37,977 nucleotides of DNA from Sphingomonadaceae bacterium (lineage in GTDB: Bacteria > Pseudomonadota > Alphaproteobacteria > Sphingomonadales > Sphingomonadaceae), in assembly GCA_025356175.1 (NCBI GenBank), contig JANXUP010000144.1:1-37977 (forward strand). The letters run 5' to 3'. The stretch's first letter is position 1, and every line of letters begins with the position of its first letter. Below, piece by piece: positions 19,492 to 22,381 of the stretch. The position numbers and the translations under genes are program-made. Under the pieces are notes generated by a model that did not search any database, was not told the DNA's origin, and was given only the letters and a program-made list of their open reading frames with translations.

Positions 19492-20709
19492 ATGACCACT
19501 GCGCCGAACCATAATTCTTTTCGCACCCAACCCGACGAACGCGGCCATTTCGGCCAGTTCGGCGGGCGCTATGTCGCCGAAACCCTGATGCCGCTCGTGC
19601 TCGAGCTGGAAGCCGAGTACACCAGAGCCAAGGCTGACCCGGCATTTCAAGCAGAGTTCGATGACCTGCTCGAACATTACGTCGGACGCCCCAGCCCGCT
19701 CTATTTCGCGCCGCGCCTCACTGAAGAACTGGGCGGTGCGCAGATCTGGTTCAAACGCGACGAGCTCAACCATACCGGCGCTCACAAGATCAATAATTGC
19801 GTCGGGCAGATCCTGCTCGCGATCCGCATGGGCAAGACCAGGATAATTGCCGAAACCGGAGCGGGCCAGCACGGGGTTGCCACCGCCACGGTCTGCGCGC
19901 GGTTTGGCCTGCCTTGCGTGGTGTTCATGGGCGCGACCGATGTGGCGCGGCAAGCGCCCAACGTGTTCCGGATGAAGCTGCTCGGCGCCGAAGTTCGCGC
20001 TGTTACTGCGGGGGCGGCGACGCTGAAGGACGCGATGAACGAGGCGCTGCGCGATTGGGTCGCCAATGTGCATGACACCTTTTACATCATCGGCACCGCG
20101 GCGGGCCCGCACCCTTACCCCGAACTGGTCCGCGATTTCCAAAGCGTGATCGGCAAGGAAGCCCGCGCCCAGATGCTGAGCCGCGTGGGCCGCCTGCCCG
20201 ACCTGCTGGTCGCGGCGATCGGCGGAGGCAGCAATGCGATCGGGCTGTTCCATCCGTTCCTTGACGATCCCGAAGTAAAGATGCTCGGGGTCGAAGCAGC
20301 GGGCCACGGGCTCGACAAGGAACACGCGGCGAGCCTTGCAGGCGGACGCCCCGGCATCCTCCACGGCAACAAGACCTACCTGCTGCAGGACGCCGACGGC
20401 CAGATCACCGAAGGCCACTCGATCAGCGCCGGACTCGATTATCCCGGGATCGGGCCGGAGCACGCCTGGCTGCGTGATGTCGGCCGGGTCGATTACACCA
20501 GCGTCACCGATGTGGAAGCGCTCGACGGGTTTCAGCTACTGTGCCGCACCGAAGGCATCATCCCGGCGCTCGAACCGGCCCACGCCATCGCCGCAGTCAA
20601 GAAGATCGCGCCGACGATGGACAAGGATCAGATCATCCTGCTCAACCTGTGCGGGCGCGGGGACAAGGACATTTTCGCGGTGGCGGAGCATCTGGGGGTG
20701 AGTCTTTAA
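19492..20709 (+). CDS. trpB: Tryptophan synthase beta subunit
   Basis: [24 protein letters not shown] motif [28 protein letters not shown] at 19492. Confidence 0.98.
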
Positions 20710-20711
20710 AG

Positions 20712-20746
20712 CCCTCTCCCCTTCAGGGGAGAGGGTTGGGAGAGGG
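20712..20746. repeat. Left 35-bp inverted repeat flanking DUF559 gene
   Basis: ccctctccccttcaggggagagggttgggagaggg; reverse complement differs at 1 position from 21096-21130; contains its own hairpin. Confidence 0.9.
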
Positions 20747-20748
20747 GA

Positions 20749-21138
20749 ATGCGCGATCCAGGTTTAACGGAGTTTGCGAAGGCCAATCGCAAACAAATGT
20801 CCGAGCCCGCCATGCGTATGTGGCTGCAACTTCGAGCGAAGCGGTTTGAGGGCATCAAATTTTATCGGGAGAAAGTGATTGGTGCTTACATTGCTGATTT
20901 TGCCGCCAACGAACCCAAGCTGGTCATTGAGATCGACGGAGATACACACGATGCGGACGATCAGGCAGACTTGGTCCGGACACGTTATCTTGAGAGCCGA
21001 GGTTATCGTGTGAAGCGGTATTCCAACGTTGATGTAATGCAGAATTTAGAAGGTGTTTTGATGCATTTGACCTCGGTGGTTGCCGCGATGCGGCCCCCTC
21101 TCCCAACCCTCTCCCCTCAAGGGGAGAGGGCTAAGTGA
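20749..21138 (+). CDS. DUF559 domain-containing protein (Vsr/PD-(D/E)XK nuclease-like)
   Basis: [98 protein letters not shown]559 core; start 2 nt after left repeat, last codons encoded by right repeat. Confidence 0.9.
21096..21130. repeat. Right 35-bp inverted repeat flanking DUF559 gene
   Basis: ccctctcccaaccctctcccctcaaggggagaggg; encodes [11 protein letters not shown] at DUF559 C-terminus. Confidence 0.9.
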
Positions 21139-21140
21139 CA

Positions 21141-21344
21141 ATGACCCGCCTCTCCTCGACCTTCGCCCGCGGCCCAGCCCTCGTCACCTTCATCACCGGC
21201 GGCGACGGGCCGACCGATGCGATTGCGGCGGTAAAGAAGATCGCGCCGACCATGGACATGGACCAGATCATTTTGGTCAACCTGTGCGGGCGGGGAGACA
21301 AGGACATCTTCGCCGTCGCGGAGCATTTGGGTGTGGAGTTGTGA
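21141..21344 (+). pseudogene. Chimeric mini-ORF: trpA 5' end fused to trpB 3' end
   Basis: [25 protein letters not shown] (resembles TrpA N-terminus [25 protein letters not shown]) joined in frame to [41 protein letters not shown] (38/41 identical to resident TrpB C-terminus). Confidence 0.93.
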
Positions 21345-21604
21345 GTACGCGCTTGCCAAATTCTGCGATCACGCTCCTAGTTGCGATCCTTGGGGTGCTT
21401 GGTGGGTGCTCCAATCCGGTCAGCGACGCCAAAGAGCGGTATGAGATCGTCCAACGGACGGGCGATAAGCAGGAAATTTGCGCTAAGAGCAGAGAGCTAG
21501 CCGAGGCATACCTGAATCAAAAAGACGAAGAGGGCTACAAAGATCAGAAGCTAACGGCGGCCATAGAATGTCAAAGCGCTGAACTAGAACGGCGAGGCAG
21601 CTAA
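21341..21604 (+). CDS. Small putative lipoprotein
   Basis: [87 protein letters not shown]; lipobox LGGC; GTG overlaps preceding stop (GTGA); stop directly abuts trpA ATG. Confidence 0.72.
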
Positions 21605-22381
21605 ATGACCCGCCTCTCCACCGCCTTTTCCCGCGGCCCCGCGCTCATTACCTTTATCACTGGCGGAGATGGCCCAACGGCTGACATCCTCGACGCGCTA
21701 GTCACGGGCGGCGCGGATGTGATCGAGTTGGGGATGCCGTTCACCGATCCGATGGCTGATGGCCCGGCGATCCAGCAGGCCAACCTGCGCAGTCTGGGTG
21801 CGGGCACCACCACCGCCGAGATCTTCCGCATCGCCGCCGCCTTCCGCGCGCGCCACCCGGAAGTGCCGCTGGTTCTGATGGGCTATGCCAATCCGATGAT
21901 CACGCGCGGGGCCGAGTGGTTCGCTGACCAGTGCCAGCAGTCCGGGGTCGACGGGGTAATCTGCGTCGATATCCCGCCCGAGGAAGACCCCGAACTCGGC
22001 CCGGCCTTGCGCGGAGCGGGCGTCGCGCTGATCCGCCTCGCCACCCCGACCACCGATGCGGCGCGGTTGCCCGCCGTGCTCGATGGCTCGTCGGGGTTTC
22101 TCTATTACGTCTCTGTCGCCGGGATCACCGGGTTGCAACAGGCCGCGCAAGCGAGCATCGAAGAAGCCGTGGCGCGGATCAAGGCCAGCGCGACAATCCC
22201 CGTCGTGGTCGGCTTCGGGGTGCGCACGCCCGAACAAGCCGCCGCGATTGCCAAGGTGGCGGACGGCGTAGTGGTCGGCTCCGCCCTGGTCGAACTGGTG
22301 GCCCAGCACGGCGCGAATGCGGCAGGTCCGGTGCGCGATCTGACGGCTGCGCTCGCCGATGCGGTCCACAGCGCCAGGTAA
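21605..22381 (+). CDS. trpA: Tryptophan synthase alpha subunit
   Basis: [75 protein letters not shown]. Confidence 0.97.
   Translation: MTRLSTAFSRGPALITFITGGDGPTADILDALVTGGADVIELGMPFTDPMADGPAIQQANLRSLGAGTTTAEIFRIAAAFRARHPEVPLVLMGYANPMITRGAEWFADQCQQSGVDGVICVDIPPEEDPELGPALRGAGVALIRLATPTTDAARLPAVLDGSSGFLYYVSVAGITGLQQAAQASIEEAVARIKASATIPVVVGFGVRTPEQAAAIAKVADGVVVGSALVELVAQHGANAAGPVRDLTAALADAVHSAR

Follow-up and report, generated by a model that had tools for sequence, protein, structure and literature searches.

A DUF559 nuclease gene bracketed by intrastrand triplex repeats: a candidate partner for a dispersed class of bacterial repeats

Introduction

At the trpB-trpA junction of a Sphingomonadaceae bacterium, a gene for a predicted nuclease of the DUF559 family lies between two inverted copies of a folded repeat, and matching inverted repeats also flank most DUF559 genes of other Pseudomonadota. 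As the same pairing recurs around most relatives, DUF559 suggests itself as a candidate for the long-missing partner that spreads or maintains triplex repeats. Our reading, to which we give a probability of about 0.6, is that repeats and gene form one unit, a partnership of the REP/RAYT kind in which a nuclease of the Vsr/EDxHD fold would have its own cognate folded repeats, spread or kept by cut-and-repair.

Intrastrand triplex motifs occur abundantly in more than 260 bacterial genomes and have been linked to genome instability, and according to Holder et al. 2015 no genes providing mobility were ever found near them (PMC4666352). The repeats and the protein family are each known; what is new is the proposed partnership between repeat and nuclease, which would work like REP/RAYT without being a member of that group. 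A search of mainly open-access journal literature on DUF559, COG2852 and PF04480 returned no paper linking them to repeats.

The element at the trpB-trpA junction

The window, meaning the whole stretch of 37,977 nucleotides that was analysed, contains the following features around the junction:

19492..20709, + strand: trpB, the upstream neighbour, its stop codon abutting the left repeat (from the ORF list, sequence and tblastn context)
20710..20747, + strand: left repeat, consisting of Y arm CCCTCTCCCC, loop TTCA, R arm GGGGAGAGGG, spacer TT and mirrored R' GGGAGAGGGG
20726..20747, + strand: G-quadruplex motif GGGGAGAGGGTTGGGAGAGGGG (R plus R'), one of two in the window
20749..21138, + strand: DUF559 (PF04480) gene, PD-(D/E)XK / EDxHD-like predicted nuclease of 129 aa
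21095..21132, - strand: right repeat, an inverted copy of the left (37/38), encoding the last codons of the ORF
21094..21116, - strand: second G-quadruplex motif, on the opposite strand and pointing inward
21135..21344, + strand: diverged duplicate in which the first ~25 codons of trpA are fused to the last ~45 codons of trpB (83% to 20575-20700)
21341..21604, + strand, coordinates approximate: small ORF with a lipoprotein-like N-terminus and no Pfam match
21605..22381, + strand: trpA, the intact downstream neighbour

The two repeats form an inverted pair of 38 nt (20710-20747 / 21095-21132) with 97% complementarity (37/38) and 347 nt between the arms. The 35-bp inverted repeats with one mismatch given in a preliminary description of this DNA correspond to 20712-20746 / 21096-21130 inside this pair, and the rest of the architecture outlined there holds as well: the ORF (ORF list, sequence) starts 2 nt past the 35-bp repeat, its last codons run through the matching right repeat, and the internal hairpin CCCTCTCCCC-TTCA-GGGGAGAGGG is present in both arms, with a DNA fold of -11.8 to -11.9 kcal/mol (z -2.5 to -3.5). 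All six occurrences of CCCTCTCCC in the window fall inside the two repeats, compared with 0.37 expected, and the window has just two canonical G-quadruplex motifs in its 37,977 bases, the R-R' halves of the repeats. Likewise, no recognisable transposase was found, the element holding only DUF559 and a sub-threshold match to MTES_1575. No methyltransferase gene adjoins the locus, whose neighbours are trpB, trpA and accD, and a search against a defence-system library gave no match. The Rfam search returned sub-threshold matches only; among these is a match of the right repeat (21095-21130, - strand) to whalefall-1, at 19.4 vs 37 bits and probably due to chance.

The junction itself had been described as otherwise conserved, which has to be corrected, as a trpA-head/trpB-tail duplicate and a small ORF precede the true trpA and the junction is variable among relatives. 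The region 21135-21604 is merodiploid, as if a second junction allele had recombined in, comparable to an ORF-bearing allele in a related genome (G019).

The DUF559 protein

The window protein matches PF04480 with 103.4 bits against a curated cut-off of 20.6 (E 7.7e-30) and contains the core D...E-x-D-G-x-x-H...D-x-x-R, in agreement with its original assignment to DUF559. Seven residues (R14, E61, D63, G64, H67, D74 and R77) do not vary across 164 homologues, and D50 is found in 99%. The protein is related to PDB 3hrl, and a profile of 23 diverse DUF559 proteins retrieves 3hrl first (E 6e-40), followed by I-Bth0305I, an EDxHD homing endonuclease (PDB 3r3p, E 1.5e-5). Foldseek places 3r3p at rank 2, but with E 0.34 on a low-confidence AlphaFold model from 12 sequences (pLDDT 63), which lends weak support only. 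As the profile matches to 3hrl and I-Bth0305I go together with the invariant D/E/D/H/D pattern, the sequence data support an active nuclease. VsrA (CCNA_02930), the DUF559 protein of Caulobacter, drives the SOS response in a cytosine-methyltransferase mutant (PMC12907096). This DNA-damage signalling when the methyltransferase is missing implies that members of the DUF559 family are able to act on the chromosome in living cells.

DUF559 is carried in one of 50,697 phage records and in 26 of 72,556 plasmid records. For the Azospirillum plasmids, the gene is present in all close relatives.

Flanking repeats around other DUF559 genes

A survey of DUF559 genes for flanking repeats, which the preliminary description had proposed as a check, found matching inverted repeats at 74% of 143 unique genes from Pseudomonadota, the corresponding shares being 9.6% for 324 control windows and 23% for crossed flanks. 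Left and right flanks were aligned de novo with a match score of at least 20 as the threshold, and the controls were gene-sized windows in the same loci. In the genus and order set the share with a repeat pair rises to 95%, while overall about a quarter of DUF559 genes lack one. Where several DUF559 genes share a genome, the ends of each gene match each other better than crossed ends do (median 33 vs 17; P 2e-12), and in 46 of 64 cases they beat every other combination. The genome of the window (G000) carries three DUF559 genes, each with a different inverted pair: that of the window, a CCCTCTCCC variant and a CCTCCCCC-type, the other two genes being L003 (G000:C145:301-612) and L001 (G000:C11:24782-25090).

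The same layout is found in Deinococcota (L084, L265, L266) and in a cyanobacterium (L267), with inverted pairs of 60-70 nt in L265 and L267, and the E. coli gene ycjD and the Neisseria gene NGO0050 have recognisable repeats on at least one side. Other operons also host a DUF559 unit, namely sufB-sufC on a Sphingomonas plasmid (L080, 3.0-3.4 kb) and paaD-paaZ on a Deinococcus plasmid (L265, 1.46-1.82 kb). At G108:C26, G125:C143 and G095:C15 (L009, L008, L007) the gene is bracketed by repeat doublets instead of single repeats, and on five contigs (G064:C76, G059:C1, G009:C1, G084:C13 and G030:C2) two DUF559 genes lie 0.5-3 kb apart, possibly as paired elements.

The repeats follow a triplex plan

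The sequences of the repeats differ between nuclease lineages, with classes such as CCCTCTCC, CCCCTCCC, CCCTCCCC, CCTTCCCC and CCTTCTCC among others, but share a common plan of pyrimidine arm, loop, purine arm, spacer and mirrored purine tract. The 5' arm is pyrimidine in 200 of 212 hairpins and purine in one. In the window repeat GGGGAGAGGG and GGGAGAGGGG are exact mirrors of each other (mirror score 1.0). A mirrored third purine tract occurs on both sides of 66 of 126 elements, compared with 8 of 606 single control windows, and where mirror and direct fits of this tract differ the mirror wins by 50:1. G-quadruplex motifs are present on both sides of 83 of the 126 elements and in none of the 606 control windows, the G-rich strand pointing mostly inward. 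By this plan the repeats flanking DUF559 are the intrastrand triplex motif (TM/PIT) of Holder et al. 2015 (PMC4666352), and the window repeat is predicted to be able to fold as a hairpin, an intrastrand triplex or a G-quadruplex.

Stable hairpins at both ends of a small gene that has entered the trp, suf and paa operons could also be taken for expression signals, with the repeats serving as terminators or mRNA-stabilising structures. We consider this highly improbable, as there is no T tract at the repeats, as PIT elements had neither promoter nor terminator activity in published tests (as cited in PMC4666352), and as such a role leaves the dispersal of repeats away from the gene unexplained.

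Coupling of repeat and nuclease

On a tree of 51 DUF559 loci, in which orthologous loci were collapsed and repeats were scored as stem classes, repeat class is clustered, with 23 changes vs 26.8 after shuffling (3/200). The CCCTCTCC class requires 11 changes vs 16.7 (1/500) and the CCCCTCCC class 3 vs 5.8 (0/500). This clustering with the protein shows up at the level of stem classes only. When full repeat arms were compared with protein identity in a raw Mantel test, no significant correlation emerged (rho 0.06, 68/500) because the aligned arms carry unrelated extensions, which is why stem classes were used instead.

The presence of the repeats in a genome is also tied to the gene. Among 150 genomes, compared with no phylogenetic correction, 468 of 478 palindromes of the form CCCTCTCCC-N2-8-GGGAGAGGG (>97%) occur in genomes with DUF559, and such palindromes are found in 51 of 84 genomes with the gene vs 4 of 66 without it (Fisher 5e-13, kinship ignored). 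At the level of the order, the corresponding counts with two or more are 7 of 8 vs 1 of 52. The preliminary description had named a lack of statistical association as an observation that would speak against a link; among the 67 exact palindromes of 12 congeneric genomes, 7 adjoin DUF559 genes vs 0.05 expected (P about 1e-13), the other 60 lying elsewhere. All four palindromes of the window's own genome adjoin DUF559 genes, while G004, G019 and G030 carry the exact window repeat without the trpBA element.

RAYT and TIRYT genes are flanked by REPs or TIRs, some of them with a GGGGWSAS motif (PMC3733652) that resembles GGGGAGAG, so that a Y1 transposase of this type might mobilise the repeats in trans with DUF559 as mere cargo. 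This is a very remote prospect: cargo would not be expected to retain an invariant active site or to covary with the repeat class, no PF01797 gene was found in G000 (an assembly of 89.8% completeness) or in many congeners with the repeats, a Y1 transposase being absent also from G004, G011, G013, G015, G026, G030 and G036, and none of the 14 scorable Y1 loci of relatives is flanked by these repeats. For G000 itself a RAYT/Y1 enzyme in trans was rejected on these grounds.

Selection and history of the trpB-trpA site

Orthologues at the same site without repeats would have counted against the association; all 12 orthologues found in the genome contigs searched lie between trpB and trpA, and 11 of the 12 have recognisable repeats at both ends. 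Their hosts include Novosphingobium, Altererythrobacter, Qipengyuania, Citromicrobium and Sphingomonas koreensis. Within this trpBA family the repeats are 93% identical and the coding sequences 63%, with synonymous sites near saturation (pS about 0.8), and dN/dS of DUF559 is 0.05-0.2 where measurable, which is purifying selection. Repeats that remain 93% identical despite saturated synonymous sites, together with a low dN/dS, imply that enzyme and repeats are both kept.

DUF559 identity tracks trpA identity (rho 0.70; 0/2000), which shows inheritance mainly in place. Vertical descent under purifying selection would also fit a host repair gene: DUF559 would be a Vsr-like mismatch nuclease maintained for the benefit of the host, a role proposed for VsrA, which drives the SOS response (PMC12907096), while triplex-prone repeats gather at gene ends for other reasons. 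Such a role alone is unlikely, as random gene-sized windows in the same loci rarely have repeat pairs, as the two ends of a gene match each other better than they match the ends of other DUF559 genes sharing the genome, and as no methyltransferase gene is adjacent.

Exact empty trpB-trpA sites, the search for which had been suggested at the outset, were found among relatives. In sites such as G013, G015 and G026 the 4-nt trpB/trpA overlap is intact, and presence or absence is therefore exact to a few bases. A trpA tree of 45 loci holds 18 filled and 27 empty sites, which are not to be read as frequencies because the filled set was partly picked by DUF559 search; the two states alternate, with 13 changes of which at least 6 are forced, and the empty G015 and G026 are nested among filled relatives. 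The element has probably been at this site for a long time, mainly by vertical descent, and has repeatedly been lost or regained with precision.

A scattered pattern of filled and exactly empty sites with nested empty alleles is what a homing cycle would produce, and among solved structures outside DUF559 the closest relative is a homing endonuclease catalytic domain, that of I-Bth0305I. DUF559 could then be a selfish gene whose product cuts the trpB-trpA allele lacking the repeats, homologous repair copying the unit in, with the repeats as boundaries or transcript insulation only. We regard homing as improbable, since it does not explain why nearly all DUF559 genes, at unrelated sites, have lineage-specific repeats, why the repeats are far more conserved than the gene, or why miniatures without the gene share the ends of the element.

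Movement of the whole unit in recent times was seen only once, because DUF559 genes of at least ~80% identity almost always occupy the same locus; the single case consists of two copies 5.7 kb apart in G321 that are 89% identical and have different flanks. A second shared site exists downstream of accD, with the full unit in L041, G378 and G350 and a repeat-50bp-repeat pair in L045. A clean target-site duplication was not established at any compared site, the intergenic DNA at most of them being too diverged; RTGAC is found on both sides of the element in L042 and may arise otherwise than by target duplication.

Miniatures and dispersed copies

A gene-less family of ~125 bp, found in G011, G027, G019, G030 and G004, has the left end of the element at its start and a variant hairpin, ATCTCTCCCCTGAAGGGGAGAGAG, at its end. 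It occupies nine loci, seven of which are independent sites, and other gene-less pairs consist simply of both ends without the gene. Compared with six congeners, the miniatures of G011 and G027 are lineage-specific (the intergenic DNA being too diverged for target duplications to be read), and the dnaK-dnaJ miniature, of six genomes, is present in G027 only and absent in five congeners. More distant members of the order have 40-50 palindromes per genome, many of them as doublets about 35 bp apart. Two repeat pairs of G108 are absent in G125, the junctions not being clean. In G108 a second, unrelated palindromic insertion (CCGCC...GGCGG) sits inside the hairpin loops of dispersed triplex repeats (L217, L218, L220, L222).

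Of 59 E. coli genomes, drawn evenly from 5,391, 23 have the ycjD-type repeat between pstB and pstA and 36 lack it. The two forms differ by 92 bp bounded by AACCGTGT (L255 1060-1275 vs L260/L261 461-585), which may reflect an insertion with an 8-bp duplication or a deletion between 8-bp repeats; the 8-bp AACCGTGT may arise otherwise than as a target duplication. For ycjD itself no simple empty site was found, the sapF-fabI interval holding other genes where ycjD is absent: many E. coli strains lack the gene because an efflux operon takes the place of the ycjD-fabI side of sapF (L087, L089 vs L088). Support for the term mobile cassette from the preliminary description is indirect only: the gene mainly stays in place, and dispersal is visible for miniatures without the gene and for single repeats.

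A model for repeat and nuclease

In the unit that we propose, and by analogy to REP/RAYT, the nuclease would recognise the folded repeat, probably in single-stranded, replication-associated DNA, and would then nick or cut at or near it. Repair could copy the repeat, a repeat pair or, in rare cases, the complete repeat-gene-repeat unit to a new location, and the outcome would be dispersed single repeats, REPIN- or MITE-like pairs and an occasional full unit. The data show the architecture and its generality, the covariation of repeat class with the enzyme, selection on protein and repeats, the dispersal of gene-less miniatures that share the element's ends, and the polymorphism of filled and empty sites. 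From these we infer that DUF559 would bind the repeats, cut them and promote their spread or upkeep, whether by copying or transposition. A wider and more tentative proposal, which in our estimate falls a little short of even odds, is a new class of minimal selfish element in which a PD-(D/E)XK/EDxHD nuclease acts on triplex- or G4-forming terminal repeats in at least three phyla, its gene-less derivatives being the scattered intrastrand-triplex repeats, including those of E. coli K-12.

A conserved nuclease bracketed by triplex repeats of lineage-matched classes would be a directly testable partner for repeats that were reported without a mobility gene (PMC4666352), and it would give a candidate role to an uncharacterised family that includes E. 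coli ycjD and N. gonorrhoeae NGO0050. If true, it would be a second, enzymatically unrelated solution to the problem solved by REP/RAYT.

Comparison with known systems

The closest match for the repeats is the G/C-rich TM/PIT class, whose E. coli motif 2 of TMECO is CCCTCTCCCTTGAGGGAGAGGGTTAGGGTGAGGGT, with the same Y-R-R' mirrored plan; it also occurs in a tandem inverted configuration and is abundant in enterobacteria, Neisseria, Pseudomonas and cyanobacteria (PMC4666352). That paper describes neither a DUF559 partner nor inverted bracketing or cognate families, which come from the present analysis. On the protein side, DUF559, YcjD, NGO0050 (PDB 3hrl) and Caulobacter VsrA share family and fold; a mismatch repair role has been proposed for VsrA, and the passages on it in PMC12907096 do not mention a repeat partnership. 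The Vsr mismatch nuclease has a linked cytosine methyltransferase that is missing here, so that only an unlinked partner could apply. I-Bth0305I (PDB 3r3p) is related in its catalytic domain by profile and fold, but is intron-encoded and has no bracketing repeats, and the recognisable transposase of an insertion sequence is missing from the window element.

The resemblance to REP/RAYT (REPtron, REPIN) and TIRYT systems lies in a small gene bracketed by inverted palindromic repeats that are also dispersed, in a repeat class tied to an enzyme lineage, in dispersed doublets and in a mainly vertical gene (PMC3733652). The differences are an enzyme of PD-(D/E)XK type instead of an HUH tyrosine (Y1) transposase and the lack of a GTAG/CGTC tag at the foot of the hairpin (sequence 20705-20750). 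As transposase and tetranucleotide tag are both absent, the DUF559-repeat unit is not a member of REP/RAYT, and the likeness drawn in the preliminary description is apt for a way of working, not for membership.
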